Positions 17,181 to 64,000 of a DNA stretch of 64,000 nucleotides are shown piece by piece (the first letter of the stretch is position 1; the number at the start of each line of letters is the position of its first letter). The translations under genes were made by a program, and so were the position numbers. This stretch comes from Brooklawnia propionicigenes (GTDB taxonomy: Bacteria; Actinomycetota; Actinomycetes; Propionibacteriales; Propionibacteriaceae), in contig NZ_AP028056.1 of assembly GCF_030297015.1 (NCBI RefSeq), positions 1,064,939 through 1,128,938 of the forward strand. Reading direction: 5' to 3'. The notes under the pieces are model-generated. The model made no database searches and was not told where the DNA came from. It worked only from the letters and a program-made list of their open reading frames with translations.

Positions 17181-18200
17181 TCAGCCCTTGGGCGCGGCCT
17201 TCGTCGCACGCAGGTGCTCTCGGTACTCGCGGCGGATCACGTCATATTGTGCGTCGGTGAGGTCGACCATGTACCTCACGGCGTCTCCAGACCAGACGTG
17301 AGTCGCGCCGTTGCTGTGCTTCCACGCCATGCGCGGGTTGTCACGCAGGTGCTCCTTCCAGCACAGGGCCTGGTGATCGTGGGTGGTTAGTGCCCTGTCC
17401 CTACCAGGGCCCTGGCGTTTGGCATTCACTCGCTTCACCAGCTCGGTCATCGTATACGGATGCGTCTGATTCGGATCGGTCTTCTTCACCATCACACGCT
17501 CGCCCTCGTGCGCCACGGACACCACTAGGTCGGCCCCCGTCACGGCCTTGGTAGAGCGCAGGTGCACGTCGTAGACAGCTGCGACGCGCTGCATGTCCGC
17601 GCCAGCGGCCTGAGTCGCGTCAAGCAGCTTGCGCAGGCCATCGATAAAGTCCTGGACCTCGGCGACAGCGCAGGTGGCCGGCTCGGCCTTCATGAACTGG
17701 ATGGGCTCCGTCGGCGCCTTGGCTCCGAGGGGGAGGAGTTGCCATGTGATCGAATCGGCCAGGTCCTTGTGAAATCGGTCCAGCATGAAGTCTCGGTAGT
17801 TCAGGACGCTGGTCTGCAAGAAGGGGTAGACCAACTCGCCTAAGTCGGCGGCGTAGAGGTGCACTGCACGGTTGCGGTACTCGGTGAGAGCGGTGACGTT
17901 GGCCGCCAGGGCCCTGCCGTCGACGCCCGCTGGGAAGAGTTTGTGGGTGACGACCTGCTTGAGCGCGTCCTCGACCGCCAGCGTCCGGTACTGCTCGTTG
18001 CGCTTCTTGGGGTAGAAAATGCGCTTGCCGGCCTGCCGCAGAGCCGCCTTCAGCGCGAGCTCCCAGGCATTGACAACGAGAACCACGGTGACCTCGTCGC
18101 GGTAGTCCATCCGAGGCTTGTTGTACACCTCGATCGCCGCCAACATCGCTGAGAGCGAGTTCGCGACGAGTCGCCGCGAGGACACGTATGGCTGCGGCAT
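17181..18200 (-). CDS. DUF3644-like protein
   Basis: 339 aa. The N-terminal third matches the DUF3644 pattern: SSRRLVANSLSAMLAAIEVYN, VTVVLVVNAWELALKAAL (the AWE-LLKA motif), KKRNEQYRTLAVEDALKQVV, and LTEYRNRAVHLY (RN-x2-H motif, HEPN-like). DUF3644 proteins are thought to be HEPN-related RNases found in defence contexts; RN...H at about residues 125-130 would be the catalytic set. The C-terminal part (residues 190-335) is unique, with a YTMTELVKRVNAKRQ helix resembling a DNA/RNA-binding segment. Monocistronic, convergent with nothing close by. Confidence 0.75.
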   Translation of the reverse strand: MPQPYVSSRRLVANSLSAMLAAIEVYNKPRMDYRDEVTVVLVVNAWELALKAALRQAGKRIFYPKKRNEQYRTLAVEDALKQVVTHKLFPAGVDGRALAANVTALTEYRNRAVHLYAADLGELVYPFLQTSVLNYRDFMLDRFHKDLADSITWQLLPLGAKAPTEPIQFMKAEPATCAVAEVQDFIDGLRKLLDATQAAGADMQRVAAVYDVHLRSTKAVTGADLVVSVAHEGERVMVKKTDPNQTHPYTMTELVKRVNAKRQGPGRDRALTTHDHQALCWKEHLRDNPRMAWKHSNGATHVWSGDAVRYMVDLTDAQYDVIRREYREHLRATKAAPKG

Positions 18201-41826: not shown

Positions 41827-42249
41827 CTTGTATGACTTGGAGTGCCTCCTGGTGACGGGTGGTGGTCGCTACGGTGGCCGTGGGAGAAGGCTCCGGGTCT
41901 CGCCGCTATCCGGCTGAGCGTGATGGCTCGTGAAAGAGATCGGTGGGCTCTGGGGTCGACTCTCCCGGTCGAGGCTGGCCCGGTTCAGGGAATTGGTGGC
42001 CGAGGCGTGGACCTGCCACGCGGGTGACTCGTCTTGGGTGGCACCGGATCACGCACAAGCGTGGGTTCGCCGACCGTGGCGTTGGTTGCGGTCGCTGGGT
42101 GGCGATGAGCGGGAGTGTCTGCGCGTCACTGTCTGAGGACGGGGACGAGGGTTCTCCCGTCCAGGAAGACGATGCCCGTCGTGCGGAGTCACTGGCCGGT
42201 GGTTGGGCCCGGCGGGGTCGTGTCGTTCACAGCGAACGGAGGAACCCTC
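41827..42249 (+). ncRNA. IS110 left-end leader, candidate bridge RNA region
   Basis: 423 bp between the element's left end and the transposase start contain no gene. In characterised IS110-group elements this position encodes the bridge RNA that pairs with target and donor DNA. I have not folded it; the call rests on location and length only. The same segment is kept in the inverted copy (47561-47983). Confidence 0.45.
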
Positions 42250-43605
42250 GTGTTTGTTCACCCTACCGATCCCGCGCTGGCGCGGGTTCAGGTCGGAATC
42301 GATGCTGCGGTGGTCGCCGACCATCACGTCACGATCCGATCGACCTTGTCCGACGGGCAGGTGCAGCTGTCCCGTTTCCATGTCCCACCCACGATTGCTG
42401 GCTTGTCTCGTCTTGGGGAGCGACTGTCGGTGTTCCCGGGTGTGGTCGCTGTTGCGGAACCGACGTCGATGACGTGGCTGGGTCTTCATGTTGCGTTGCA
42501 ACGCGCCGGCTGCGACCTGTCCCTGGTCGGGACCCGGCACTCGGCCCGGTTGAGGGGAGCGATCTCAGGCAAGCTCAAGTCCGACGTGATCGACGCCGAC
42601 GTGTTGTCGCTGGCCTCTGATGTGTTCGCGCTGTCACCCTTGGACCCTCCCCTGCCGGCGGAGTTGGCGCTGCGCCGCGCGGTCGTGCGCCGCGGGAAGC
42701 TGGTCATCGACGGGAATCGGGCGCGGCGGCGACTGATCTCGTTGGCGCGGTGGGCGTTTCCCGATGTGTGGACGGCGTTCGCCGGGTCGTGGCCGACCGC
42801 GATTGCGGTCTTGACCCGGTGGCCCGACTTGCGCGCGTTGGCCGCTGCGCGACGCTCGAGCGTGACCGCGGTCGTCGCCGCCCACACCCGAGGCGTGCCG
42901 GGTGTCGCCGAGCGTGCCGGCGCGATCCGTCTCGCGGCGGCGGCCTGGGTCGAGTTCTGGGACGGTCGCCTGGACTTGGAGGCGTTGGCCTGGGAAACCG
43001 CCGAGCATCTGCGCGACATCACGATCGCGAGCGAACAGATCGAGCGGGCCACCACCCAGGCACAGCGCTACTGGGCGGGTCTGTATGGCGATGACCCGCT
43101 GCTGCTGTCCCTGCCCGGAATGGGTCCCATGACCGCCCCCACGATCCGCGCGTTCCTGGGCGACGGCACCCGCTTCGTTTCGGCGAAAGCGGCCGCGTCC
43201 TACGCCGGGCTGACACCGTCAACGTGGTCGTCGGGAACGGTCGTGCAACCCTCCCGGGCGATCACCAAAGAAGGGCCCGCGGTGCTGCGGCTGGCGTTCT
43301 ACCAAGCCGCGAATGGTGCCCGCCGTGTCGACCCACAACTGGCGGCCTACTACCAACATCTGATGGTCGAGCGCGGGCACTGCCACACCCAAGCCACCGT
43401 CGCGGTCGCCCGCAAACTCGTCGAACGGACCTGGACGGTCCTGACCCGAGGCCAGCCCTACCAGTTCCGCGACGCCACCGGGCAGGCCGTGACCCGGACC
43501 GTCGCCAAGGACCAAGCCCGGCATGACCATGCCGTCCCCGACGACGTCCGGGCCCGAGCTCGAGCGCGCAGCGCGGCCACGCACCGCTCCAAGCTCACCA
43601 AGTAG
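42250..43605 (+). CDS. IS110-family transposase (DEDD plus Tnp20 domains)
   Basis: 451 aa from the GTG at 42250, which has CGGAGG seven bases upstream. N-terminal RuvC-like DEDD domain: VQVGIDAAVVADHHVTI (first D), VVAVAEPTSMTWLGL (E), KLKSDVIDADVLSLA (D-x2-D). C-terminal Tnp20: SLPGMGPMTAPTIRAFLGDG, SAKAAASYAGLTPS with the conserved Ser, and ITKEGPAVLRLAFYQAANGARR (in parts). Intact. IS110 recombinases act through a DEDD/Ser mechanism guided by a bridge RNA. Confidence 0.95.
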   Translation: MFVHPTDPALARVQVGIDAAVVADHHVTIRSTLSDGQVQLSRFHVPPTIAGLSRLGERLSVFPGVVAVAEPTSMTWLGLHVALQRAGCDLSLVGTRHSARLRGAISGKLKSDVIDADVLSLASDVFALSPLDPPLPAELALRRAVVRRGKLVIDGNRARRRLISLARWAFPDVWTAFAGSWPTAIAVLTRWPDLRALAAARRSSVTAVVAAHTRGVPGVAERAGAIRLAAAAWVEFWDGRLDLEALAWETAEHLRDITIASEQIERATTQAQRYWAGLYGDDPLLLSLPGMGPMTAPTIRAFLGDGTRFVSAKAAASYAGLTPSTWSSGTVVQPSRAITKEGPAVLRLAFYQAANGARRVDPQLAAYYQHLMVERGHCHTQATVAVARKLVERTWTVLTRGQPYQFRDATGQAVTRTVAKDQARHDHAVPDDVRARARARSAATHRSKLTK

Positions 43606-45810: not shown

Positions 45811-46204
45811 ACAGCTATCCACTTTATCGGGAACACTCCAGTGTACGAGAGGAACCGGTGTCGTAAAGCCTCTTAATCGTCGCCCAGCTCTAACCCGGTG
45901 GATCGGGGCTGGTTTGCGGTGCGTAGCCGCTTGTCGGGGCCGTCGTAGGCGGTCGTGGCGGGTGGGGAACTGTCGGAACGGTGGTATGTGTCGGGTCCGG
46001 CAGGTCGTGGTGAAGGTCTACGGCGTAGCCACGACGATGCCGCAGGGGTAAAGCCGGATGCCTCGCCCGTCAACCGAACAACAGTGAACGTGGGAACCAT
46101 CCGCATTCCGTTCCCCGCTTTTTTGGGGATAGGTGCGTTGCCTGCCGAAGGGTGTGGGTGGGGCGGAGCCGCCGTAGTACTCCGAGGCCGGGAAAGCCGG
46201 TCAC

Positions 46205-46711
46205 ATGGGGAAGGGCGGCAGTGAGAGAAAGCAGAAGAAGGTGAATGTAATGTCCGAAGACGCGCCGGTGAATGTCGGCGCCTCCGGATGGCCCAGCGAT
46301 GCTCGGGCCTATCTGGGGGTACGGAGGATGCAGACCAAGCTGCATGGTTGGGCGGCCACCGATGGTGGTCGCCGGTTCGATGACCTGTGGAACCTTGTGT
46401 GTGATCCGGCGTTCTTGACGATGGCGTGGGAACGCGTCGCCGGGAACAAGGGGTCCAAGACTCCCGGGGTGGACCGTGTCACCGTGGCACGGATCAGTTC
46501 CGGGGTCGGGGTGGAGGAGTTCCTGCGAAACATTCGAGCCCAGTTGAGGGCTGGAGAGTTCAGGCCGGTGCCGGTGCGGCAGGTGATGATCCCCAAGGCC
46601 AGCGGCAAGCTGCGCAAGTTGGGCATCCCGACCGTGACCGACCGGGTGGTGCAGGCAGCTTTGAAGCTGGTGCTGGAACCCATCTTCGAGGCCGACTTCA
46701 AGTCGTGCTCG
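46205..46711 (+). pseudogene. Group II intron-encoded reverse transcriptase, N-terminal fragment
   Basis: 169 codons from the ATG that follows the intron's CAC. MGKGGSERKQKKVN..., then LHGWAATDGGRRFDDLWNLV, FLTMAWERVAGNKGSKTPGVDRVT (in parts: MAWERVAGNKGSKTPGVD, the RT0/RT1 block) and VRQVMIPKASGKLRKLGIPT (RT2), VVQAALKLVLEPIFEADF (RT3 start). The frame then enters antisense IS110 sequence. The YADD active site, maturase and endonuclease parts are gone. Confidence 0.9.
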
Positions 46712-47560
46712 CGGGTCATCGCCATACAGACCCGCCCAGTAGCGCTGTGCCTGGGTGGTGGCCCGCTCGATCTGTTCGCTCGCGATCGTGATGTCGCGCA
46801 GATGCTCGGCGGTTTCCCAGGCCAACGCCTCCAAGTCCAGGCGACCGTCCCAGAACTCGACCCAGGCCGCCGCCGCGAGACGGATCGCGCCGGCACGCTC
46901 GGCGACACCCGGCACGCCTCGGGTGTGGGCGGCGACGACCGCGGTCACGCTCGAGCGTCGCGCAGCGGCCAACGCGCGCAAGTCGGGCCACCGGGTCAAG
47001 ACCGCAATCGCGGTCGGCCACGACCCGGCGAACGCCGTCCACACATCGGGAAACGCCCACCGCGCCAACGAGATCAGTCGCCGCCGCGCCCGATTCCCGT
47101 CGATGACCAGCTTCCCGCGGCGCACGACCGCGCGGCGCAGCGCCAACTCCGCCGGCAGGGGAGGGTCCAAGGGTGACAGCGCGAACACATCAGAGGCCAG
47201 CGACAACACGTCGGCGTCGATCACGTCGGACTTGAGCTTGCCTGAGATCGCTCCCCTCAACCGGGCCGAGTGCCGGGTCCCGACCAGGGACAGGTCGCAG
47301 CCGGCGCGTTGCAACGCAACATGAAGACCCAGCCACGTCATCGACGTCGGTTCCGCAACAGCGACCACACCCGGGAACACCGACAGTCGCTCCCCAAGAC
47401 GAGACAAGCCAGCAATCGTGGGTGGGACATGGAAACGGGACAGCTGCACCTGCCCGTCGGACAAGGTCGATCGGATCGTGACGTGATGGTCGGCGACCAC
47501 CGCAGCATCGATTCCGACCTGAACCCGCGCCAGCGCGGGATCGGTAGGGTGAACAAACAC
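46712..47560 (-). pseudogene. IS110 transposase, truncated
   Basis: First 283 codons of the same transposase as at 42250, from the GTG at 47560 up to ...YWAGLYGDDP, after which the frame continues into antisense intron sequence. The DEDD domain is complete but the Tnp20 domain with the catalytic Ser is lost, so it should be inactive, though it could still bind bridge RNA. Confidence 0.9.
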
Positions 47561-47983
47561 GAGGGTTCCTCCGTTCGCTGTGAACGACACGACCCCGCCG
47601 GGCCCAACCACCGGCCAGTGACTCCGCACGACGGGCATCGTCTTCCTGGACGGGAGAACCCTCGTCCCCGTCCTCAGACAGTGACGCGCAGACACTCCCG
47701 CTCATCGCCACCCAGCGACCGCAACCAACGCCACGGTCGGCGAACCCACGCTTGTGCGTGATCCGGTGCCACCCAAGACGAGTCACCCGCGTGGCAGGTC
47801 CACGCCTCGGCCACCAATTCCCTGAACCGGGCCAGCCTCGACCGGGAGAGTCGACCCCAGAGCCCACCGATCTCTTTCACGAGCCATCACGCTCAGCCGG
47901 ATAGCGGCGAGACCCGGAGCCTTCTCCCACGGCCACCGTAGCGACCACCACCCGTCACCAGGAGGCACTCCAAGTCATACAAG
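46712..47983 (-). mobile_element. IS110 element, truncated inverted copy
   Basis: Reverse complement of 41827-43098: base x in copy one corresponds to 89810 minus x. Every frame compared between the two is identical, so the 1272-bp repeat is perfect or nearly so. It keeps the left end and leader and loses the 3' third of the transposase at the junction with the group II intron (46711/46712). Confidence 0.92.
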
Positions 47984-48084: not shown

Positions 48085-49089
48085 CTACAGGCCCGAATCG
48101 CCCACTACTTTGATCCGTGCGCCATGGGCAGCAAACTGAGAATCCGTAATGGCAACAGGCAGATCCGCCGCATGGGAGGCCTTCATAATGATTGCACGGG
48201 CACTCGCCAGCGAGCCAGAGCGAATGACGCTGAACAAGCTTGGACCAAGTGACGACATGCCAAGATTTGGAAGTCCACTGTCTAGCGCCAGTCGCCTTAG
48301 TCGCCCCAGTCGCTCGTCGTAAGAATTCCAAACAGCAGATTTAAAATCGCCCTCTTGCATGGTATTGATCGAGTCCGATACTTGAGCGACGTCGCCCTCC
48401 AAGAGACCAGGCAAGAGTCTCATATAGCAATCCGCGATCACTCGATCCGCCGATTCACGTGAGACCGGACAATTCCTGGAGAAGAAGGCCCTCTCAGAAT
48501 CGCCGGACGCACCCTGCATTCCGAGCGGCCGAATGAGCACGAGCGACAGTTCATCACTTGGCGTGAAGCGACCGATCAATGGTGGAAGACCAGCGGTGCG
48601 CGCCGCGGATGATGGCAAGAAACCCGTCTTTCCGTCAGGGCCAAAACGGTGTCCGGCATCCACAACGATCCCCCCATGCTGGAACGTGTAGCTGCCTACT
48701 CCTGAGGTGCCTCCGCGGCCGGATTCACGCGCAATCTGAGCGACATTCACCTCTCGATCGAAATATCGCAATAGCCCCAGCGCGACAGCCAACGCCGTTT
48801 GCGTCTTGTGTCCAAGTCCAACGTGGGGGGGGATGGTTTGAACGAGTTCAACGACTGCCTCTCGTGCGTCAACGCCGAACTTTGAGGCCAGGGAAATACC
48901 CTCACGAAGCGCTGGGACTTGCTCATCCGGCACTGCCGTCGGCGCTTGGTGATGCCCTGAAACCCGAACGACCACTCTGGGGGAGTCGATGGCGAAGCCG
49001 ATAGTCCCGTCCACCCGACCCAACTCACCGTTCAGATCCAGGAGCGTCACTGCGATGCGCGCAGGACTTGAGACCTCAATCGGACTCAT
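48085..49089 (-). CDS. GHMP-type protein of the beta-RFAP synthase family
   Basis: 334 aa. Start VSSPARIAVTLLDLNGELGR, the GHMP ATP-loop equivalent IPPHVGLGHKTQTALAVALGLL (in parts: IPPHVGLGHKTQTALA) and the C-terminal GMSSLGPSLFSV, matching the GLGSxTQ and GQSSWGPTxY signatures of beta-ribofuranosylaminobenzene 5'-phosphate synthases, which join a ribose phosphate from PRPP to an aromatic acid to form a C-riboside. Here the substrate is unknown; a methanopterin pathway is not suggested by neighbours. Last gene of a five-gene overlapping operon (ATGA overlap with the SDR gene). AT-richer than the hem genes. Confidence 0.8.
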   Translation of the reverse strand: MSPIEVSSPARIAVTLLDLNGELGRVDGTIGFAIDSPRVVVRVSGHHQAPTAVPDEQVPALREGISLASKFGVDAREAVVELVQTIPPHVGLGHKTQTALAVALGLLRYFDREVNVAQIARESGRGGTSGVGSYTFQHGGIVVDAGHRFGPDGKTGFLPSSAARTAGLPPLIGRFTPSDELSLVLIRPLGMQGASGDSERAFFSRNCPVSRESADRVIADCYMRLLPGLLEGDVAQVSDSINTMQEGDFKSAVWNSYDERLGRLRRLALDSGLPNLGMSSLGPSLFSVIRSGSLASARAIIMKASHAADLPVAITDSQFAAHGARIKVVGDSGL

Positions 49090-49721
49090 CGCATGCTCCA
49101 GAGATACTCTGGTGTCGCCCGAATCAAGCCACCTCGCGAGGCAGCCACATGGTCCGATACCAACTTCCTCACGAGCCCCGCCGTAGCAGGAACCAGCTCG
49201 GGGTCTGCCCGCAGCCGATCGATTCTCACAGAGCAGAACCCACAGGACGGGTCAGCTTGTCGAGCGCGAAAGCCGATGAGAGTCTCCCCACAAGCCTTGC
49301 CCACCACGTACGCCAATCCATTGGCAGGGAGTGTCTCGACTGCCAAGCTGGACGTGAATACGAACGAGAATGACTGGTGTGCGCGCTTGAGCGCCAATAC
49401 AGTCTCGATCATGCGGTCGGCAGCAACCACTGCCAGTGCTAGCTCCTGCTCCAGGGAGGACCCGCTCAACCCTCTAGTTGCCATGTGCACTATCCCGATA
49501 TGAGTTACGCTCTCCGCGGTGGCGACTTCACAGAATCTCGAAGTTACGTCAATCGCGGTCTGGGCATCCCCAAGGTCCCCATTTAGCTTGACGCTTCGCG
49601 GCATGCGACTGGGTGACCTGTGAACCACCTCCCAGACGTCCCCGATGTCAGCAAGGCCTCGGACCAGGTCGTCGCCAATGCGCCCCGCTCCACCAGTAAC
49701 GAGGTAGGCGGACGTCGTCAT
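49086..49721 (-). CDS. Short-chain dehydrogenase / NAD-dependent epimerase-like protein
   Basis: 211 aa. Rossmann start AYLVTGGAGRIGDDLVRGLAD with GxxGxxG, an LNGDLGD segment (Asp after the fourth strand), THIGIVHMATRG, FVFTSSLAVETLP (catalytic Ser) and AYVVGKACGETL (Tyr-x3-Lys). It is shorter than usual NDP-sugar epimerases (about 300 aa), so the substrate-binding C-terminal part is reduced. Overlaps both neighbours by four bases. Might modify the sugar of a nucleotide; inference from context. Confidence 0.85.
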   Translation of the reverse strand: MTTSAYLVTGGAGRIGDDLVRGLADIGDVWEVVHRSPSRMPRSVKLNGDLGDAQTAIDVTSRFCEVATAESVTHIGIVHMATRGLSGSSLEQELALAVVAADRMIETVLALKRAHQSFSFVFTSSLAVETLPANGLAYVVGKACGETLIGFRARQADPSCGFCSVRIDRLRADPELVPATAGLVRKLVSDHVAASRGGLIRATPEYLWSMR

Positions 49722-50278
49722 GCGGGCGCCCTTAAGAAGTCGGCGAACTTCTCGTAGGCGAGCTGGACGTGCGACATACGCACCTTTTCCTCGGGATCCA
49801 TTTCAGCGTATGTCAGTCGCGAGCCTACCGGAATGAACATGGTGTCGTAATAGTAAGCACGTCCACCACTGGCACTGGGGGCGATTTCCCCATGCATCAG
49901 TCCGGAGAATTGGCGCACTCTCCGCCCATCACAGTAGCTAATTACGCTCTTGGCAGTCGCTTCCCGCGTTGCGCCCGTGGGGATGACGCTGCAGAGTTGG
50001 GAACCTAGCCTGTCGAAGAAGACCTTCGACAGGCTTCCGGGAAGCCCTTGAAGCGCTTGAATTTCCAACGCACCGTGCTCACAAAAAAGCGGTACTTGGT
50101 ATTTGTTGTAGGCTGCCAACGCCTTCTGACGCGACACAAGGAGTAGGTCCAGCGATAGGACCTCTTCCAAGTTTCCCGGATCTAGCTGGATAACCTCAAT
50201 TCCCAGCGACAGAAGAGCGATCTGGGCCTCCGCAACCTTCCCACGACTCGTCGTGACGAAGTACGCCACGCCGGTCAC
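49718..50278 (-). CDS. Ham1/RdgB-like nucleoside triphosphate pyrophosphatase, divergent
   Basis: 186 aa from the GTG that overlaps the SIR2 stop (GTGA). ITPase-family layout: YFVTTSRGKVAEAQIALLSL at the N-terminus (the T-x-N/S-x-x-K motif), FCEHGALEIQALQGLPGSLS where Ham1 proteins have EDSGLxVxAL-G-PG, and DPEEKVRMSHVQLAYEKF where they have EKN-x-SHR. Glu and Lys are kept, but the acidic Asp (ED to EH) and the Arg of SHR are changed, suggesting altered substrate or metal use. Family members hydrolyse non-standard (d)NTPs to NMP and PPi. Confidence 0.82.
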   Translation of the reverse strand: MTGVAYFVTTSRGKVAEAQIALLSLGIEVIQLDPGNLEEVLSLDLLLVSRQKALAAYNKYQVPLFCEHGALEIQALQGLPGSLSKVFFDRLGSQLCSVIPTGATREATAKSVISYCDGRRVRQFSGLMHGEIAPSASGGRAYYYDTMFIPVGSRLTYAEMDPEEKVRMSHVQLAYEKFADFLRAPA

Positions 50279-51123
50279 GGGCGCGCGCAACTCTCCAGGA
50301 GTTCTGCCATGGCCGCCTCTGGGTCATCGGGGAGGAGTTCGATGGTCTCGACGTTGAATCTCACGGAGAGAATCGTGCGCTGAACCTCACCCATGCCAAA
50401 CGAAGCGAGGTAGGATTTCGGCCCGACACGGCGCCCGTCGTCATAGACCTTCTCGTTACGCTCCTTATTCAGTCTGTAGAGCAAGTATCTCACATTGACA
50501 TCATTGAGCGAGTATCCCATGAAAAGGATGGACTTACCCAAAGCCTCGGCGCGCAGGCGGATGTCGATTGCGGAGTCTAGGCTCATGCGGTCGAAGTACT
50601 GAGATTCACTCATGACCAAGCTCTTGTGAGAGGTGAAATCACCGTGAAACTTCACCACCTGCACTTCCTCGTCACCCGGGCCAGCGGCGATGTCCAGGTA
50701 CGATGAGATCACTCGGGTCCGGAGACCGGCCTCTTGAAACGAGCGCTCCAATAGGTCATCGTAGTTGGTCGTGTAGACGACTCTCGGCCGCAAGTTGACC
50801 AGCGCGTGATGCACTCGGGATGGGACGAAGTTGGCTGTGGCTCGGGCGAACTCGCGGTTCAGCTTCGCCGCATAGGCTTCCCGGGTCTCCGGTCGGCTAA
50901 CCGCAAAATAGTAGTCGAACAGCTGAGGGAATGATCCCTGTGAGACAAAGACATCAGGCTCAAACCCCAGATCCGTGGCCAGCGCCTCGAGGAGAGACCG
51001 CCAGCTGGGAAGATGCGATGAAATCGATAGTCCTGAGCCCACAAACGGTATGACTCGCCCGCCCTTGAAATCGTTCTTCAGAGCAGCGACGGCCGTGTTG
51101 GATGAATCACGCCAGGATGACAC
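50275..51123 (-). CDS. SIR2-like NAD-consuming protein
   Basis: 282 aa from a GTG overlapping the kinase gene by 17 bp (an in-frame ATG at 51162 is the alternative). SIR2 motifs: RVIPFVGSGLSISSHLPSW (GxG and SxS loop), RVVYTTNYDDLLERSF (TTNYD), VVKFHGDFTSHKSLVM (catalytic His in KxHG) and ILFMGYSLNDVNVRYLL (GYSL-D). This SIR2_2 class acts as NADase in several anti-phage systems (Thoeris, DSR, SIR2-HerA). Here it is probably the killing effector or an NAD-dependent enzyme of the operon. Confidence 0.9.
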   Translation of the reverse strand: MSSWRDSSNTAVAALKNDFKGGRVIPFVGSGLSISSHLPSWRSLLEALATDLGFEPDVFVSQGSFPQLFDYYFAVSRPETREAYAAKLNREFARATANFVPSRVHHALVNLRPRVVYTTNYDDLLERSFQEAGLRTRVISSYLDIAAGPGDEEVQVVKFHGDFTSHKSLVMSESQYFDRMSLDSAIDIRLRAEALGKSILFMGYSLNDVNVRYLLYRLNKERNEKVYDDGRRVGPKSYLASFGMGEVQRTILSVRFNVETIELLPDDPEAAMAELLESCARP

Positions 51124-51625
51124 TTTGTACCACTCTTTCGAGATTATGATCAGGACTGCCATTCACGAGCACTAACTCTGCGTTCGCCGGCGCAGAATTT
51201 TCACGTATGGCGTGCGCCAGTCTGGCCTTGAACTGTGACGCGTCGTCATTACGGCTGGATAGCCTTTCCTCTATGAGACGAGGAGGATCGATTCTGAGAT
51301 GCACGTGGACCACTTCTGCAGCTCTCCGAAGATCGGCGACCCTCCACGTGGGGAGGGTCAGTGAGGCGAGAGTCGCTGGCTTCCGCAGTTCCGAAAGAAG
51401 AAGGCCATAGCGAAACCCAAATAGCTCGTCCCAGAAGAGTGATTGGGACTCGCGACTTGCTGCTTCCCGTTCGGAAAAGAAATGGTAGTCAAGTAGAGTC
51501 TCGTCGCTCCGTCGTGGTCGCGAAGTATACGGGCGCAGCTTGGCGATCGACGCATTTTGAAGGAGCAAGTCGGCCAGAGTCGTCTTTCCGGAGCCCGGCG
51601 CTCCCGTGATGGCCAAAATTCGCAT
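51107..51625 (-). CDS. Guanylate-kinase-like P-loop kinase
   Basis: 172 aa. Walker A ILAITGAPGSGKTTLADLLL at residues 3-22, then the guanylate-kinase NMP-binding block LRPYTSRPRRSDETLLDYHFF (YTSRPRR-x2-E-x4-DY-F), which binds GMP in true Gmk, and a late RLSSRNDDASQFKARLAHA segment resembling the lid. It therefore phosphorylates a nucleoside monophosphate or an analogue. GGGGG-rich Shine-Dalgarno before the ATG; first gene of the operon, whose promoter must lie in 51626-51750. Confidence 0.85.
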   Translation of the reverse strand: MRILAITGAPGSGKTTLADLLLQNASIAKLRPYTSRPRRSDETLLDYHFFSEREAASRESQSLFWDELFGFRYGLLLSELRKPATLASLTLPTWRVADLRRAAEVVHVHLRIDPPRLIEERLSSRNDDASQFKARLAHAIRENSAPANAELVLVNGSPDHNLERVVQSVILA

Positions 51626-52041
51626 GCCTGCCCCCCTCCGCGAGCCCGACCCCATCCAGAGCCGCGCATCCACCCATGGATCGACACTCTAGCCTCGATC
51701 TTTCGTTGCTCCGGGCTGTGTCCTGAAAGGGGCCAGCCAGCCCGCCAGCCGGACGACGGCACGGCCGGTGGCGGGGCAACTCGCCGTCCAGGGCGGACCG
51801 TCCCGGGCGGGGTGCGCCAGAAGCGGGATGAGGCTTGTTTCGCTGGGATTCGGGGTCTGGGACCGCTCCGGCTCGTCGGGGGTGGTTATTGACTGAAAGA
51901 GGGGCCCTGCGCGGCGCTGGGCCCTGTGCCCAGTGCTTCGCCTCGTCGGGCCAACTAACTAGGCACCGTTCTGGCTCCCCCACAAGCGCACTCTTGCGCG
52001 TGTCTCATGTGGTCAGTTGGGATTTCTGAGACACTGAGTCA
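51626..52041. other. Divergent intergenic region between kinase operon and recombinase gene
   Basis: About 415 bp without a credible gene. It must hold leftward control signals for the five-gene operon and rightward signals for the recombinase gene. Near 51990-52035 TGTGGTCAGTTGGGATTTCTGAGACACTGAG includes a TCTGAGACAC-type sequence close to the recombinase start. I could not define promoter hexamers with confidence. Confidence 0.4.
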
Positions 52042-56219: not shown

Positions 56220-59069
56220 GTGCTTGGATTGGCGGCCACGGGCGAGACTGGTGACCTGCTCGTGCCCGGCAAGGTCGTCCGCATGCGTGAACGCCTATGG
56301 CGCGTCGATTACAGGGACGGTGCGGTATTCAGCGCCACCCCCCTCGACGGTCGGGACAACACGCCCATGCGATTCCATACGCGCCTGGAAGACGTGCAGC
56401 CGGGCGCGTTGCCGTTCCCGGACGCGGCCACGGTCGGCGACGCGGCTGAACAGGCACTGCTGCTGGACGCGTACAAGTTCTCTCTGCTGCATGGCACCGC
56501 GCCTATCCTCGGCCTGCAACGCTCGCGGGCGATCCCGACCGACTTCCAGATCGTGCCGCTGCTGATGGCGTTGAACGCCGAACGGGTGAGGCTCCTCGTC
56601 GCCGACGACGTTGGCACGGGCAAGACTGTGGAGGCCGGGCTGATCCTGTCCGAGCTGCTGGCCCGAGGCCGCGCTCGACGCATCCTGTTGTGCGTTCCCG
56701 CGAACCTGCGGGACCAGTGGCGGGACACGCTCGACACCATGTTCCACATCGACGCGACCGTGGTCGCCGGCCACCTGCTACCCGCCCTGGAACGGAAACT
56801 CCTGCCCGGCCAGAGCGTGTGGGCCGCACATGACGTTGTGATCGCAAGCATCGACTACCTCAAGACCCGCACCGAGGAGGTGCTGGCACATCAGTGGGAC
56901 GCGCTCGTCGTCGACGAGGCCCACCTTGCCGCGGCCCCACACGCGTTCGCGGGACGGTCGTCCACCGACATGGAGCGGCACGCGTTCGTGCATACCGCTG
57001 CCGCCCGGTGTCGGCACTTGCTGCTGCTCACCGCGACCCCGCACAACGGCTACAGCGACTCCTACCACTCCCTCTTCGAGATGCTCGACCCGACTCTGGT
57101 GACCGAGACCGCGTTCGGGCGCAAGCTCAACCGCACACGGGCACGCGAGTCCCATGTCGTCCAACGGCGACGCGCCGACATCGAAGCCTGGTACGGCGAG
57201 CGCGGCACGAAGTCGCCGTTCCCCGCCCGTAACTCAGATGAAGTGATCGTCTCCCTCAAACGGAGCCCCGACCTGAGGGCCCTCATCGACGAGCTGACCG
57301 GCTACACCGGCGACCTGTACGGCGCGTCCACGACCAGCATCGGCAAGTGGGTCGCCGCGCACCTGCACAAGCGGCTGCTGTCCAGCCCCGCCGCGTTCCG
57401 CGCCAGCATCGACAACCGGCTGAACGCGATCCGCCGCCAAGCCGCTCTCGACCTCGGCGACCAAGCCGCGCGGGCGGCGGCTGACGCCACCACCGATCAG
57501 GTGTTCACCGAGGACGACGAGCTCGACGCCGCACACTTGACCGCCCGCGTCGACCTGCCCCGCAACGCGGAGCTAGACCGCCTCAACACCATCAAGGACC
57601 TCGCTGCCCGGGTCACACCGGCAAAGGACCCCAAACTCGCCGAACTCCTGCGGCTCCTCCCAGAGCGCATGCACGCCCACCCGAACGCGCGCCGCGTGCT
57701 CGTGTTCACCAAGTTCAAGGACACCCTCGACTACCTGGAGAAGAACCTCTCCCGGGCCGTCGGCAAGGCGAAGGCAGGACTGCCCGACGGCACGCGTATC
57801 TTCACCATCTACGGCGACATGAACCTCGCCCAACGCAACGCCACCTTCGCCGAGTTCGAGGCCACGAAGCAGGCAGTGCTCGTGGCCACCGACTGCATCA
57901 GCGAAGGCGTGAACCTGCAACGGGCGTGCGCGGAGCTCATCCACTACGAGCTGCCATGGAACCCGAACCGGATCGAGCAGCGCAACGGCCGCATCGACCG
58001 GTTCCAGCAGCGCGAGCCGTTCGTCGGGATCCGCACGCTCGTCCTCGACGACGCCCTCGACGCGAGCCTGCTTTACCTGATCGTGCAGAAGTCCGAGCAG
58101 ATCCGCGCCGACTATGGGTTCGTGCCCCCGTTCCTCGCGAACAGCGACATCCTGTTGTACCTGTCCGACCCCGGCACCGCGTTCCGTGCGAAACTCCGTG
58201 CCTCGGGGCACCTGCAGCCGACCCTGTTCGACGAGTCAGTTCTGCTGGATTCGGATCCCGAACTTGCCCGGCTCACGGAGGAGAGCGTCGCAGACACCGA
58301 CGTGCTCGCACGCGTCAAGGAGGAGTCGTTCTACGGGCAGACTGGCATCTCCCTCACCGCGATCGAGGACGCCCTGAACGAGTCGCGCCAAGTGACCGGC
58401 ACCACCGACCAGGTCGAGAGGTTCACCCTAGCCGCACTCCGTCACCGGCACGCGACCGTCACCACCCTCGGCAACGTGCACACCGTCACGTCAGCGCCCT
58501 CCATCGTGGACGACGTCGCCCCGGCCGGGCACAGGTTCACGTTCGACACCGGCCTCGGCGTGGACGACCCGACCCTCGACGTGGTTGACCTCGCGCACCC
58601 GCTCCTGCGCCGGCTCATCGACCTGACGTTAGATGAGGCCCGCCTCCCCGAGTGTCGTGGCCGGGTTGCTGCCCACAACGCCGTCCTCGACACCGGACGG
58701 GCGGCCGTCCTGCACGTCCTGTTCCGGTACGTCGCCAACGCGGACCCCCCCGTCTTGCTCGAGGAGCTCGTGCCCCTCGCGCAACGCACCAGCGACCCAG
58801 GAGAGGCTTTGGACTCCGCCCCTGTTCTGTCGGCCGAACCTGGACGCGGAGCGCCGTTCGTCGGGGACGTGCGCGACGATGCCGCCTTCACACTCTCCGA
58901 CTCAGGCCTGGAGGCCCGGCTCGACCAGGTCGCCAAGCATCGCGCGAACATGCTCGCCGAACGGCACGGCCGGCTCACCGCGGCGTGGGCCGAGGGGCTA
59001 GCGGACGTGCAACCGACCTCCCACGACCTCGTCGCGATCACCCTCGTCTACCCAGAGGTCGCCCGATGA
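56220..59069 (+). CDS. SNF2/SF2 helicase, DrmD-like
   Basis: 949 aa, GTG start. A small beta-rich N-terminal domain (VPGKVVRMRERLWRVDYRDG), then an SF2 core: Walker A LVADDVGTGKTVEAGLILSELL (129-136), DEAH box ALVVDEAHLAAAP (232-235), motif III LLLLTATPHNGYSDSYHSLF, helicase C part VLVFTKFKDTLDYLE, VATDCISEGVNLQRA and motif VI NPNRIEQRNGRIDRFQQ. This RapA-like SNF2 type matches the helicase (DrmD) that precedes the methylase in class 1 DISARM, and similar genes in other helicase-methylase defence loci. Overlaps the methylase gene (ATGA). Confidence 0.85.
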   Translation: MLGLAATGETGDLLVPGKVVRMRERLWRVDYRDGAVFSATPLDGRDNTPMRFHTRLEDVQPGALPFPDAATVGDAAEQALLLDAYKFSLLHGTAPILGLQRSRAIPTDFQIVPLLMALNAERVRLLVADDVGTGKTVEAGLILSELLARGRARRILLCVPANLRDQWRDTLDTMFHIDATVVAGHLLPALERKLLPGQSVWAAHDVVIASIDYLKTRTEEVLAHQWDALVVDEAHLAAAPHAFAGRSSTDMERHAFVHTAAARCRHLLLLTATPHNGYSDSYHSLFEMLDPTLVTETAFGRKLNRTRARESHVVQRRRADIEAWYGERGTKSPFPARNSDEVIVSLKRSPDLRALIDELTGYTGDLYGASTTSIGKWVAAHLHKRLLSSPAAFRASIDNRLNAIRRQAALDLGDQAARAAADATTDQVFTEDDELDAAHLTARVDLPRNAELDRLNTIKDLAARVTPAKDPKLAELLRLLPERMHAHPNARRVLVFTKFKDTLDYLEKNLSRAVGKAKAGLPDGTRIFTIYGDMNLAQRNATFAEFEATKQAVLVATDCISEGVNLQRACAELIHYELPWNPNRIEQRNGRIDRFQQREPFVGIRTLVLDDALDASLLYLIVQKSEQIRADYGFVPPFLANSDILLYLSDPGTAFRAKLRASGHLQPTLFDESVLLDSDPELARLTEESVADTDVLARVKEESFYGQTGISLTAIEDALNESRQVTGTTDQVERFTLAALRHRHATVTTLGNVHTVTSAPSIVDDVAPAGHRFTFDTGLGVDDPTLDVVDLAHPLLRRLIDLTLDEARLPECRGRVAAHNAVLDTGRAAVLHVLFRYVANADPPVLLEELVPLAQRTSDPGEALDSAPVLSAEPGRGAPFVGDVRDDAAFTLSDSGLEARLDQVAKHRANMLAERHGRLTAAWAEGLADVQPTSHDLVAITLVYPEVAR

Positions 59070-62000
59070 CCGACGTCAGCCTCATCCACACCAGCGGTGG
59101 CCTGGTCGGTGACGTGATCACCGACAGCCTCCGCCAGCCCACCGTCGACGGGGATGCGAAGTTCCTCGCCGACCCGTCCACGTTCACCGGCCGCGACGGG
59201 ATTTCACCCACCAGATCCCAGCTCTCCGCCGACCAGGAAGCCGCATTCCGGGCGTGTGTCGCCCTCTGGTCCGCATACGCCGCCGAACTCAACGGCGACA
59301 TGGAGGTGTCCCGCCTTCGCGAGAAGCTCGTCCTGCCCATGCTCGACCTGTTCGGGTTCCGCCCCGTCTACCAGCGCGCGAAACTGCACGCCGGGGACCG
59401 GGCATGGGCCGTGTCGCACCTCGGCTGGGACGGCCCCGATGCTCCCCCCGTCGGCGTGGTTGCCGTCGCTGACCTCGACGCGCGCGAGAGCCGTGCCCGC
59501 TCCGCCCACGAGGAGCTCCAGGGCTATTTGAACGCCGCCACCGCCAGGTGGGGGCTACTCACCAACGGGCGGGTGCTACGGCTGCTCCGCGACTACCACC
59601 ACACGCGCACCCGCGGCTACGTCGAGTTCGACCTGGCCGCCATGTTCGAGGCCGGCTCCTACTCCGATTTCCTCGCCCTCTGGCGGCTCTGTCACGCGTC
59701 CCGGTTCTTGCCCCAGACAGCGCCCGACTCGGGACCAAGCGACACCGAATCGGAGGACGGGAACGAGGGCGACGACACCGACGACGGCGGCGACACCGCG
59801 GCGTCCGACACGCCCGAAGGCCCGGACAGCTCCCTGCTGGAACGGCTCCACGCCAAAGCGCTCACCGCCGGCGTCGCCGCCGGCAAACGGCTCCAACCGC
59901 AGGTCCGGCAAGCCATCAGCCTCCTCGCGAACGGCCTACTCGAAGGGACGCCGGGCCTGCGGGACCGGATGACCTCGAACCCCGACATGGGCCGCGACCT
60001 GTACCGAGAACTGCTCACCGTGCTCTACCGGGTGCTGTTCCTCCTGTTCGCCGAACAACGCGGCATGCTCAACGGCGCCAACCCGCTCTACGACGAGACC
60101 TACAGCGTCACCCGGCTCCGCTCCACCTCCACGACCGGCCACGCCGAACCACGCCGCATGGACCTGTGGGAAGGGCTGAAGACCACGTTCCGGGCGTTCT
60201 CGGACGAGGACGACGCCGCGGCACTCGGCGTCTACCCGTACAACGGGTTCCTGTTCGATCTGACCCGAACCCCGCTCACCACCGCCGGGCGTATCGCAAA
60301 CACGTACCTCACCCGAGCGCTGCAATCCCTCACCACCGTCACGGTCGGCGGCACCAGCATGCACGTCGACTACCGCAACCTCGGCGTCGAAGAACTCGGC
60401 GCCGTGTACGAGTCCCTGCTCGACTACACCCTCGCGGTAGCCGGGACCGCGACCCTGGACGACGACAACAAGAGAGTCGCTCCTGGGCAGGCGTACCTCG
60501 CCCGGATCAGCATCGAACGCGCCGACCTCGCCTCGTTCTACACGCCCACTGACCTCGTAGACCTCCTGCTCACCCGCTCGCTCGACCCGCTCATTGAACA
60601 GCGGCTCGCGGACGCCGGCGACGACCCGCAGGCGCAGGTGGCCGCCATCCTCGACCTGAAAGTCATCGACCCCGCCTGTGGCTCCGCCGCCATCCTCGTC
60701 GGCGCGCTCGACCGGCTCGCCTACACGGTCGCGAAAGCCCGCAGCAACCCCCACGAGCCCCTCCCTCACGACCTCGCGCACGCCCGCCGCGAAGTGCTCC
60801 AGTCGTGCATCTATGGCGCGGAGAAGGACCCCTTCGCGGCCGAGCTCGCCAAGGTCGCCCTGTGGATCCACTGCGTCGTCCCCGACCAGCCGCTCACGTT
60901 CCTCGACCACCACATCGTCTGTGGTGACAGCCTGGTCGGCTGGCCGCTGCTGAAAGTGCCCACCCGCATCGAAAACGCCGCCTTCCAGGTCACCGGGGTG
61001 AAAGGCCCGTTCGGCAGCCGCCTCACGCGGGCACTCAACGACAACAAGGCATTCACCGCCGGGTACGGGGACCTATTCCAAACCGACACCGTCGAGTTGA
61101 CCCTGACCCTCCCCGACGCGCTCCACGGACCAGAGCAAACGCCGGCGCATGTCCGCGCCAAGTCGCAGGCATTCCGGGACTGGCAGGCCAGCCCCGAGTA
61201 CGCCGTCTGGAAACAGACCGCCGACATCTGGACCGCCGCCCACTTCTGGACCGACGGGGACACGCACGCCATCCCGACCAGCCGCGCCTACGCAGCGGCC
61301 CTGGACGGCCACCCCGACCCCAACACCGCCGCGGTAGCGGCCAGCATCCTCGCCGACATCAACCCCATCCATTGGCCGCTCGCCTTCCCGGAGATCCACG
61401 CCCGGGGCGGCTTCGACCTCGTGATCGGCAACCCACCCTGGGAGCAGTACAAGGGCGAGGAACAACCGTTCTTCCGACAGCACCTGCCGCGTATCGCGGC
61501 CATGACCAGCGAGACCCGCAAGAAGGCCATCGCCGACCTCGAACACACCAACCCCACGATTTACGCCCGCTGGAAGACCTACCAGGCGGGACAGGGCAGG
61601 CTCGCCCACTTCGCCAAGTCCAGCGGCCGGTACACCCGCACCCCGAACGAGGCGAACACGTACGTCTTGTTCACCGAGCTCGCCGCCGACTCCAGCTCTA
61701 ACGTCGGACTCATCGTCAAGTCCGGCATCGCCACCGACGCCTCGCAGTCCCCCGTGTGGAAGCGGCTCCTTGACCGGGGCCGCGTCCGCGAGGTCCTCGA
61801 CATGGTCAACCAAGAGACCTCGGGCAAGCGCGTGTTCCCGGCGGTCGCCGCGGTCGAGCGGTTCTCCGTCCTCTATCTCGGGGAGCCGTCTGACTCCCTG
61901 CCGCGCGCGTCGATGCTCAACTTCGGCGTCGCCGAGGCTGTCACGAGCACCCCGAGGTCCTGGACGCGCACTGAACTGCGGACCATCTCGCCACGCACCG

Positions 62001-62995
62001 AGACGCTACCCTCGACCGCCGACCCGGCCGAGCTCGCCCTCGCTCTCGAGCTGCAGGACAGGTTCCCGACCCTCGACTTCTCCGAGCGCCACGGCGAGAA
62101 CCCGTGGAACCTCAAATACGCCGGGCTGTTCCACTCGTCGGCATCGAAGGCGAAGGGGTGGCTTCTGCGCGGTCCGGCACTGGAGTCCGCAGGGTTCAGG
62201 CTCCACACAGACAAGCACTATCGCCACCCGGACGGGCGCGAGGCGCTCCCGGTCTACGAAGGCCAGATGGCGAACCGGTGGGACCACCGAGCGCGCACGT
62301 TCCAGGGGTTCTTTGGGAAGGATCGTTACGGGCGGAAGCCCCACATCCCATGGGTCACCGAGGAGCAGCACGCCGATGCGTCGTTCGAGGTCGAACCGCG
62401 CTACTGGATGCACGCGCAGATCGCCCGCGAGCGGCTGGACGATGTCGTAGGACGCGGACGTGCGATGCTCGCGATGAGGGATATCGGGGCTGTGTGGACG
62501 AACAAGCGGTCACTGCGGGTCGCGCTCATGGAGCCGTTGCCCGCCACTCACACTCTCCCCGTCCTCGTCACGGACAGCGCCAAGGTCCTCGGAGCGGCCG
62601 CGCTGCTCAACTCAATGACCCTCGACTTCCTCGCCCGGATCCATATGCCAGGCGGCCACCTCACTCCCTGGGTGCTGTCCCAATGTGCCGCGCCGACGCC
62701 ATCGGACATCCCCTCCGAGGTGGAGGCCGTGTCGGCCGCTCTGAGCGTCACGACCGCCCGGCTCGGCGCGTTCCTCGGCCGACAGCCCACCCGATGGGAC
62801 GCTGGAGAACGAGAGCTCCTCGACGCCCGGTCGGATGCCCTCATCGCGCAGGCGTACAGGCTCACGCTGGCCGAGTATGAGGTGGTCCTGAACCACTTCA
62901 AGCTGCTTGAGAAGATCGAGATGCGCGAGGTCGGGGAGTACCGCAGCAAGCGGCTCCGGCTGGAGGCGTTCGAGGAGATCGGAGGGGGTCGCTAA
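59066..62995 (+). CDS. Eco57I-type adenine-specific DNA methyltransferase, large
   Basis: 1309 aa. A restriction-endonuclease-like N-terminal region (MEVSRLREKLVLPMLDLFGF), an acidic linker around residues 225-255, helical TaqI/Eco57I-like part (YRVLFLLFAEQRGML, LASFYTPTDLVDLLLTRSL), motif I KVIDPACGSAAILVGALDRL (about residue 530), CIYGAEKDPFAAELAKVALW, the catalytic FDLVIGNPPWEQYKGEE (NPPW, about residue 789), and a C-terminal target-recognition part. Motif I reads GSAA where GSG is usual. Likely the methylase arm (DrmMI/PglX-like) of the defence locus: N6-adenine methylation of host DNA. It ends TAATG into the next gene. Confidence 0.88.
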   Translation: MTDVSLIHTSGGLVGDVITDSLRQPTVDGDAKFLADPSTFTGRDGISPTRSQLSADQEAAFRACVALWSAYAAELNGDMEVSRLREKLVLPMLDLFGFRPVYQRAKLHAGDRAWAVSHLGWDGPDAPPVGVVAVADLDARESRARSAHEELQGYLNAATARWGLLTNGRVLRLLRDYHHTRTRGYVEFDLAAMFEAGSYSDFLALWRLCHASRFLPQTAPDSGPSDTESEDGNEGDDTDDGGDTAASDTPEGPDSSLLERLHAKALTAGVAAGKRLQPQVRQAISLLANGLLEGTPGLRDRMTSNPDMGRDLYRELLTVLYRVLFLLFAEQRGMLNGANPLYDETYSVTRLRSTSTTGHAEPRRMDLWEGLKTTFRAFSDEDDAAALGVYPYNGFLFDLTRTPLTTAGRIANTYLTRALQSLTTVTVGGTSMHVDYRNLGVEELGAVYESLLDYTLAVAGTATLDDDNKRVAPGQAYLARISIERADLASFYTPTDLVDLLLTRSLDPLIEQRLADAGDDPQAQVAAILDLKVIDPACGSAAILVGALDRLAYTVAKARSNPHEPLPHDLAHARREVLQSCIYGAEKDPFAAELAKVALWIHCVVPDQPLTFLDHHIVCGDSLVGWPLLKVPTRIENAAFQVTGVKGPFGSRLTRALNDNKAFTAGYGDLFQTDTVELTLTLPDALHGPEQTPAHVRAKSQAFRDWQASPEYAVWKQTADIWTAAHFWTDGDTHAIPTSRAYAAALDGHPDPNTAAVAASILADINPIHWPLAFPEIHARGGFDLVIGNPPWEQYKGEEQPFFRQHLPRIAAMTSETRKKAIADLEHTNPTIYARWKTYQAGQGRLAHFAKSSGRYTRTPNEANTYVLFTELAADSSSNVGLIVKSGIATDASQSPVWKRLLDRGRVREVLDMVNQETSGKRVFPAVAAVERFSVLYLGEPSDSLPRASMLNFGVAEAVTSTPRSWTRTELRTISPRTETLPSTADPAELALALELQDRFPTLDFSERHGENPWNLKYAGLFHSSASKAKGWLLRGPALESAGFRLHTDKHYRHPDGREALPVYEGQMANRWDHRARTFQGFFGKDRYGRKPHIPWVTEEQHADASFEVEPRYWMHAQIARERLDDVVGRGRAMLAMRDIGAVWTNKRSLRVALMEPLPATHTLPVLVTDSAKVLGAAALLNSMTLDFLARIHMPGGHLTPWVLSQCAAPTPSDIPSEVEAVSAALSVTTARLGAFLGRQPTRWDAGERELLDARSDALIAQAYRLTLAEYEVVLNHFKLLEKIEMREVGEYRSKRLRLEAFEEIGGGR

Positions 62996-64000
62996 TGCGC
63001 CCGTTGTCATTGGTCGCTGGGCTCCGCGAGGGATACGCGCGGTACGTGGACTCGTTCCAGTTCTACAAGAACCCGGCGATCCGAGACTGGGTAAGGGGCA
63101 AGCGCAGGGAGGGCCGTCTGCTCTACCGGGAACCGTTCCTGACGTTGGCGAAGCCGTTCGAAGACGGCGCTTCCCTGCAAGCACTGGTGGACGACGGTGT
63201 TCTCGACTCGGGTGTATTGGGGGTGTTCACTAGGAAGCCGGGCGACCCGGGTTCTGGACCGGTGTCGCCGTTCGCGCATCAGGAGCAGGCGGTCCGGCAG
63301 GTCATGGCCGGTCACAACACGGCGGTGACCACGGGGACCGGATCTGGCAAATCGTTCACGTTCTACATGCCGATCGTGTCCACCGCGCTATCAGTCGCCG
63401 CGGCCCGGCAAGTGGGGGTGCTGCGGCGTCCGGTGGCGGTGATCATCTATCCGATGAACGCGCTGGCGAACAGCCAGTACGAGGACATCGCGGCCCGGCT
63501 GGCGGGCACTGGGCTGACGGTGTGCAACTACACGGGCAGCCTCAAAGTTACCGGCGAAGCAGCGTTGAAGGACTTCAAGCAGTTGACGGGCCGGGACACC
63601 CCGTACGACAGCGAGGTGATCGATCGGGGCACGCTGCACACCAAGGGCTGCGACATCCTGCTCACCAACTTCAAGATGTTGGAGTACGCGCTCGTCCGCA
63701 GGGAGGACGCCGCCCTGTTCGACACGCTCGGCGATGAGGGCCGGCTGCGGTACCTCGTGCTGGACGAGATGCACACCTACTCGGGCCACCAGGGTGCCGA
63801 CATGGCGCTGCTCGTCCGCCGGTTCAAGGCACGGACGGGCACCGCTGGGACGCTGCGGTGCGTGGGCACGTCCGCGACGGTCGACTCGGGTGATCCGGCG
63901 GAGGCGCGTGCGACGATCGCGGAGTTCGCGGGGCGCCTGTTCGGTGAGCCGTTCGACCCGGACCACGTGGTGGGCGAGTCGTACGGGAAGCAGGAGACCC
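62995..64000 (+). CDS. DEAD/DEAH helicase, N-terminal part (runs off window)
   Basis: 335 codons are visible from an ATG with GGAGGGGG upstream, overlapping the methylase stop by one base. N-terminus YARYVDSFQFYKNPAIRDWV, then SPFAHQEQAVRQVMAGHNTAV (Q motif-like), Walker A VTTGTGSGKSFTFYMPIV (about 113-120), VIIYPMNALANSQYEDIAA (Ia), DILLTNFKMLEYALVRRED, DEMH box YLVLDEMHTYSGHQGADMA (about 256) and motif III RCVGTSATVDSGD. This is the large helicase type that usually ends in a DUF1998 domain, as in MrfA, Druantia DruE and related defence helicases. The rest lies beyond the window. Confidence 0.85.
   Translation, partial: MRPLSLVAGLREGYARYVDSFQFYKNPAIRDWVRGKRREGRLLYREPFLTLAKPFEDGASLQALVDDGVLDSGVLGVFTRKPGDPGSGPVSPFAHQEQAVRQVMAGHNTAVTTGTGSGKSFTFYMPIVSTALSVAAARQVGVLRRPVAVIIYPMNALANSQYEDIAARLAGTGLTVCNYTGSLKVTGEAALKDFKQLTGRDTPYDSEVIDRGTLHTKGCDILLTNFKMLEYALVRREDAALFDTLGDEGRLRYLVLDEMHTYSGHQGADMALLVRRFKARTGTAGTLRCVGTSATVDSGDPAEARATIAEFAGRLFGEPFDPDHVVGESYGKQET

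Follow-up and report, generated by a model that had tools for sequence, protein, structure and literature searches.

A window of 64,000 nucleotides from the genome of Brooklawnia propionicigenes (3.21 Mb, one contig) was analyzed. At positions 48085..51625 it contains an operon of five coupled genes on the minus strand, which may encode an NAD-depleting immune system resembling Kongming, with a signal made by the operon's own enzymes; the chance that this reading is correct in full is put at slightly less than even. In two reports (PMC12948488, PMC12774641), Kongming (KomABC; Zeng et al., Science 2025) is described as consisting of the adenosine deaminase KomA, the Ham1-fold protein KomB and the SIR2 NADase KomC. 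KomB binds deoxyinosine triphosphate (dITP), the activating signal; a phage deoxynucleotide kinase is borrowed, and the output is NAD depletion.

The mechanism proposed for the operon would start with a synthase of the RFAP synthase (RFAPS)/ForT family. As judged from family, fold and residues, this enzyme would couple phosphoribosyl pyrophosphate (PRPP) to an aromatic acid, releasing CO2 and pyrophosphate and yielding a C-nucleoside 5'-monophosphate. A short-chain dehydrogenase/reductase (SDR) would modify the base or the sugar, which is the weakest step. By analogy with Kongming, a guanylate-kinase-like (Gmk-like) enzyme would produce the diphosphate and a host nucleoside diphosphate kinase the triphosphate. 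The latter would be bound instead of hydrolyzed by the Ham1-like protein, which lacks the catalytic Asp, just as KomB binds dITP. Finally, the Ham1-like protein would activate the SIR2 protein, which is predicted from its homology to KomC to destroy NAD+ and to halt the infected cell. It is highly probable that the Ham1-like protein binds a triphosphate and switches on NAD destruction by SIR2, and the operon likely serves in defence, with SIR2 as its effector. The signal is rather probably a nucleotide other than dITP; its assignment as a C-nucleotide is the preferred interpretation of the remaining genes, but a tentative one.

Calling of open reading frames (ORFs) recovered all five genes. 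The kinase gene (51107..51625) starts with ATG, and longer starts are possible up to a GTG at 51673. It is followed by the gene of the KomC-like SIR2 NADase, identified by Pfam, motifs and its KomC match (50275..51123 from a GTG, or to 51162 from an ATG), and by that of the KomB-like Ham1/ITPase-fold protein, identified by Pfam, a KomB match and alignment (49718..50278 from a GTG, or to 50290 from a TTG). The short SDR of 211 amino acids (49086..49721) was assigned by Pfam and two motifs, the GHMP-fold C-ribosyl synthase (48085..49089) by TIGR00144 and the PRPP contacts of ForT. With the nearer starts the genes overlap by 17, 4, 4 and 4 bp; the values are 56, 16, 4 and 4 bp when the longer starts of SIR2 and Ham1 are taken. 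The original prediction, made by a model from the sequence, had named the same five minus-strand genes with overlaps of 4-17 bp; these overlaps were reproduced with the nearer starts, and the Pfam and TIGR matches (kinase, SIR2, Ham1, Epimerase, GHMP/TIGR00144) agree with its gene identities, and the changed active site of Ham1 was confirmed by alignment. Homology, namely the KomC/KomB-like pair, lends good support to its proposal that the operon is a nucleotide-based immune system in which SIR2 is the effector.

The SIR2 protein (at most 295 amino acids) matches Pfam SIR2_2 (E-value 4e-23), the sole domain found, and retains intact TTNYD (Asn) and KFHGD (His) motifs. Its best solved match is a KomC-type chain of 9v0g with an E-value of 2e-55, whereas ThsA follows far below with 1e-17. 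When the operon was compared with PADLOC-DB, the SIR2 protein was matched with ThsA as the best model, the kinase gave only weak P-loop matches, and the other three proteins gave none. SIR2 relatives occur in 45 of 394 genomes of the class, and a Ham1 match was found in one of the eight neighbourhoods read (locus L070); genes of the loci were called by a codon-position score, and the caller missed the SIR2 gene of L068. Viral contigs scanned for SIR2, Ham1 and SDR relatives, each with only a few short patterns, yielded none. On a Bradyrhizobium plasmid (L077:5437-6783), a NUDIX hydrolase gene directly precedes a KomC-like SIR2 gene, as if NUDIX replaced Ham1.

The Ham1-fold protein (Pfam Ham1, 1.5e-28) likewise has its best solved match in 9v0g (7e-33), and matches KomB of 8zsg with 4e-25. 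Its catalytic Asp is replaced by a His (EHGAL), which KomB also carries at this position, and the C-terminal SHR motif reads SHV. We take the position of the catalytic Asp to correspond to Asp72 of human ITPase, and the Arg of SHR to Arg178. Both human residues are called crucial in a published study (PMC9016069). In an alignment of 34 Ham1-fold proteins (eight linked to SIR2, 12 fused to a kinase, 13 single actinobacterial ones, and the RdgB of this genome; the frameshifted fusion of L011 was left out), the catalytic Asp position is occupied by His or Gln in all eight SIR2-linked proteins (window, L012, L013, L070, L079, L083, L088 and L089). The Asp is kept in all 12 fusions, all 13 single proteins and RdgB, so that a loss occurs in none of the 26 proteins not linked to SIR2. 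RdgB scores 198.8 bits versus 100 bits for the operon copy. The original prediction had assigned the destruction of the nucleotide to the Ham1-like protein. The loss of the Asp points instead to sensing of the nucleotide, and the protein is probably a sensor; a role as a scavenging hydrolase was rejected for the same reason.

A KomB-type profile matched 197 of 396 genomes of the phylum at 1e-12. Among the matches listed, only those in this genome and in the genome of L070 exceed 250 bits, and the next reaches 133.5 bits. At the 13 next-best loci, which carry short flanks only, the Asp is kept and no SIR2 match was seen. In two genomes of the phylum (L098 and L100), the Ham1-fold protein carries the motifs EDTSL and SMRK and stands between the catalytic and the KomB types. 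Locus L070 (3403-8053), from the same class as the window, contains, in this order, a TPMT/TehB-like methyltransferase, a SIR2 protein, a Ham1-fold protein in which the Asp is a His, a DNA methyltransferase recognized by eye as D12-like, and a fusion of HARE-HTH, a weakly matched NUDIX domain and a P-loop kinase. Pairs of the Kom type thus appear to be connected with different enzymes that modify nucleotides, namely a deaminase, a methyltransferase and, in the operon, an RFAPS.

The similarity of the SIR2/Ham1 pair to KomBC is also what would be expected if the pair sensed dITP or another deaminated nucleotide, deamination being carried out by the host or the phage, with RFAPS, SDR and kinase as regulators, counter-measures or passengers. 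Among six plasmid regions with SIR2-linked Ham1, three contain an adenosine deaminase (annotated in L079 and L089, by eye in L012), and the stretches of the other three (L013, L083 and L088, from plasmids of Pantoea in two cases and of Acinetobacter in one) hold no gene annotated as such. The latter three favour this explanation, although an amidohydrolase gene is present in each Pantoea stretch, which in L083 lies about 0.8 kb past SIR2 on the opposite strand. Against this explanation, the RFAPS, SDR and kinase genes overlap their neighbours and are therefore probably co-transcribed with them. Moreover, the Arg of the SHR motif is kept in the six plasmid SIR2-linked proteins but is a Val in the window; in L070 it is a Ser. 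This change is a hint, and no more, that the Ham1-like protein of the window reads a different base. Sensing of dITP or another deaminated nucleotide is rather unlikely, though it is the most serious competitor of a signal made within the operon.

The synthase, which would provide this signal, matches Pfam GHMP N (7e-5) and exceeds the cut-off of TIGR00144 (179.6 versus 113.5 bits). It stays below the equivalog cut-off of NF040726 for the true RFAP synthase of methanopterin synthesis (200.5 versus 328 bits). The closest solved relative is the formycin C-nucleoside synthase ForT, with 24% identity over 323 residues. Five of the six PRPP contacts of ForT (Arg19, His99, Thr106, Arg135, Ser139 and Ser142) are kept; the position of Ser142 contains a Gly in the window and a Ser in none of the 17 aligned rows. 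In a tree of 28 rows, the window protein forms a long branch outside every starred set. It was placed (89/90) with rows from Streptomyces and of the tetrahydromethanopterin (H4MPT) type, apart from the loci with Ham1-kinase fusions, where the H4MPT-type label was given to L017 and L020 (Poribacteria) without evidence and several 'bgc' labels were taken from neighbouring genes by eye. RFAPS relatives are rare nearby (two of 293 genomes of the order and two of 396 phylum genomes, both counts including this genome itself). Three Streptomyces loci (L018, L019 and L028), whose RFAPS-like proteins are among the closest in identity to that of the window, carry a radical-SAM-like gene beside the RFAPS-like gene, and L018 and L028 also a TrpB-like gene (by eye). 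The SDR matches Pfam Epimerase (2.5e-5) and shows GGAGRIG and YVVGK (YxxxK) motifs, which were read by eye. At an E-value of 1e-8 no relative was found in the 295 other genomes of the class (1/296, the own genome only), and none was found on plasmids.

Co-occurrence in other genomes had been named in the original prediction as a test. The exact five-gene set was not found a second time in the order, class, phylum and genome-contig searches made, which speaks against that prediction; the combination of synthase, Ham1 and kinase does recur in 13 other loci, where Ham1 and kinase are fused (L004, L009, L010, L011, L016, L022, L023, L025, L029, L031, L033, L034 and L035; L011 is frameshifted). Eight of them come from a pattern-limited RFAPS scan of the genome-contig collection, which gave 19 loci, four are plasmid loci, and one (L016) is an IMG/VR contig, viral by the classification of that database. 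Not all 13 are independent, as L010 and L011 as well as L034 and L035 are very similar over these genes. The hosts belong to Pseudomonadota, Bacteroidota, Bdellovibrionota and Actinomycetota, in addition to the viral contig. A phage search with RFAPS and a Ham1-kinase protein gave no match at 1e-5. The other 11 of the 19 RFAPS loci are a loosely sorted mix of formycin-like, other biosynthetic, H4MPT-like and unclear contexts.

In 12 of the 13 loci RFAPS is preceded by a protein that has two hydrophobic segments (computed for ten, with two segments in each; no match in L035). For this putative two-transmembrane protein, nothing beyond a weak PLD-like match (L023) was found. A DNA methyltransferase lies near 11 of the loci (nine D12-like, one C5 and, in L016, one identified by eye on the other strand), and none was matched in L031 and L035; most D12-like calls rest on similarity to the methylase of L004, Pfam having been run for L004 and L023. 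When eight two-transmembrane and Ham1-kinase proteins were scanned with PADLOC-DB 2.0.0, only two weak dCTPase matches were obtained. The Ham1-kinase rows of the RFAPS tree form two clusters, one of which (L016, L025 and L031) includes L026; at L026:6265-8720 a P-loop-kinase-like gene (by eye) lies upstream of the RFAPS-like gene, and no Ham1 was seen. Since the RFAPS of the window branches apart, the fused Ham1 keeps the Asp, and the fused kinases scanned match P-loop models other than that of the operon kinase, the set of synthase, Ham1 and kinase may have been assembled twice. Such a double assembly argues for a shared chemical logic but does not prove it.

The operon kinase just misses the cut-off of Pfam Guanylate_kin (PF00625; E-value 1.6e-5, 25.1 versus 25.2 bits) and reaches 46.3 bits with the Gmk model TIGR03263, whose cut-off is 160.45. 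A canonical Gmk is encoded elsewhere in the genome (146.1 bits versus 23.9 for the operon kinase). The P-loop and the Arg/Arg/Tyr block are conserved, the Tyr with a one-residue gap. Among the positions that we take to contact guanine, the Ser is replaced by Pro and the Glu by Phe, each in three of the four printed alignments and again when the kinase was aligned pairwise with the canonical Gmk of this genome; one of the four aligned chains, 9jae, itself has a Pro at the Ser position. The third contact (Ser/Thr) is a Leu in the printed alignments and lies beside a gap in the pair alignment. Because the guanine contacts appear changed in most alignments and a normal Gmk is present, the operon kinase is probably a paralogue for another substrate.

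These changed contacts would also fit a PhnN-like kinase that forms PRPP from ribose 1,5-bisphosphate and thereby feeds RFAPS, while host kinases raise the C-nucleotide. Enzymes of the RFAPS type require PRPP and the PhnN model TIGR02322 is matched with 20.8 bits, so that such a role is possible. However, the score of the Gmk model is higher, and in the 13 other RFAPS loci a kinase is fused to a Ham1 fold, which makes this variant quite improbable.

Equally improbable is an H4MPT-like coenzyme or C-nucleoside natural-product pathway with SIR2 and Ham1 as housekeeping proteins and no relation to defence: H4MPT-type surroundings are seen for the RFAPS relatives of L003 (from the annotation) and L015 (by eye) and formycin-like ones for that of L002, and the window RFAPS is nearer to the Streptomyces and H4MPT-type rows of the tree, but the catalytic Asp of Ham1 is lost, both SIR2 and Ham1 have their matches in the KomBC immune complex, and the Pfam-scanned flanking genes are IS110, resolvase, TraG/TraD-like and SNF2 genes. 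The H4MPT coenzyme pathway itself was rejected, as no MCH was found in the genome and the NF040726 cut-off was missed. In the formycin-like C-nucleoside context, on a Mesorhizobium plasmid (L002:7995-13874), the RFAPS/ForT-like gene lies near PurC-like and PurH genes.

The operon lies in a gene island, and its G+C content is 0.56-0.60 per gene, compared to 0.66-0.68 in the 2-kb segments on either side and about 0.69-0.72 in core-like parts; other island stretches (38-42 and 44-46 kb) are equally low, with 0.59-0.61. The AT-rich character noted originally was thus found again. The original prediction had also placed the operon beside other defence loci; elsewhere in the window, defence-type matches were obtained for a DrmD-like SNF2 protein (56220-59069), a DruE-like protein (from 62995, cut by the window end) and a DUF3644 protein matching PDC-S19 (17181-18200). 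The flanking genes scanned with Pfam (46070, 52042, 53940 and 56220) are mobile-element and helicase genes, and the window further holds a DUF4365 protein, an ArdC-N protein, a TraG/TraD-like coupling protein, a resolvase and IS110 copies. The operon DNA was matched nowhere in one genome of the same species (50 contigs), although the empty result of such a search is weak on its own; the operon is likely variable between strains. The DrmD-like SNF2 helicase and the DruE-like protein (56220-64000) could belong to a DISARM/Druantia-type locus that is cut by the window end. Two IS110-like transposase ORFs (42115-43605 and 46070-47695) lie in opposite orientation, share their first 985 bases exactly and differ thereafter; the second is overlapped by a partial ORF that resembles, by eye, a group II intron reverse transcriptase.

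As described in these reports, Kongming provides the precedent that a base-modified nucleotide can act as an alarm. The operon suggests that a pair of this type can be combined with quite different signal makers, which would assemble a nucleotide from PRPP rather than deaminate an existing one. If this is true, a C-nucleotide would represent a novel type of alarm molecule, protected by its C-C bond from the glycosidases and phosphorylases that clear ordinary nucleotides, and the operon would be a directly testable case. It also points to a wider family of RFAPS-Ham1-kinase operons. The more general idea is rather doubtful: C-nucleotides would be an unrecognized class of immune second messengers in bacteria, and defence systems would have taken up RFAPS/ForT-type synthases on at least two occasions, once with the Kom-type pair of the window and once in the loci with Ham1-kinase, two-transmembrane protein and DNA methyltransferase. 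No literature connecting RFAPS, SIR2 and defence was found, and a broader search gave, among the matches listed, none with the name RFAPS, which is weak evidence of absence. The original prediction knew of no described system with this gene set. This holds for the half consisting of synthase, kinase and SDR, which matches no system found, whereas the SIR2/Ham1 half is related to Kongming.

Comparison with known systems gives the following picture. From ForT and RFAP synthase, the operon synthase differs by its low identity to the former, its score under the true-RFAPS cut-off, and its embedding in a SIR2/Ham1 operon. With Thoeris, the operon shares a SIR2 NADase, presumably here too switched on by a nucleotide, and ThsA is the best PADLOC model; yet the operon SIR2 shows only SIR2_2 and no SLOG, and no TIR partner is found among the five genes, so that Thoeris was rejected. 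The Ham1-kinase loci similarly unite an RFAPS-like enzyme, a Ham1-fold protein and a P-loop kinase with a putative effector. In contrast to the operon, their Ham1 is fused to a kinase of another family and retains the Asp (12 of 12 aligned), a two-transmembrane protein replaces SIR2 (12 of 13), a DNA methyltransferase is nearby (11 of 13), and there is no match to the SDR, SIR2 or kinase of the window. Kongming differs from the operon by KomA, as no adenosine deaminase was found among the five genes or the four Pfam-scanned flanking genes, to which the search for deaminases was confined; for this reason the operon is not filed as Kongming. Furthermore, the operon possesses a kinase of its own, whereas Kongming is described as using that of the phage; it adds an RFAPS-like synthase and an SDR, and the Arg of SHR is changed. 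SIR2 precedes Ham1 in the operon and in L070, whereas Ham1 precedes SIR2 in the six plasmid pairs. What the operon has in common with Kongming is an adjoining SIR2 NADase and Ham1-fold protein, each finding there its best solved match, the loss of the Asp in Ham1, a presumed kinase step in signal making, and NAD depletion as the presumed output.

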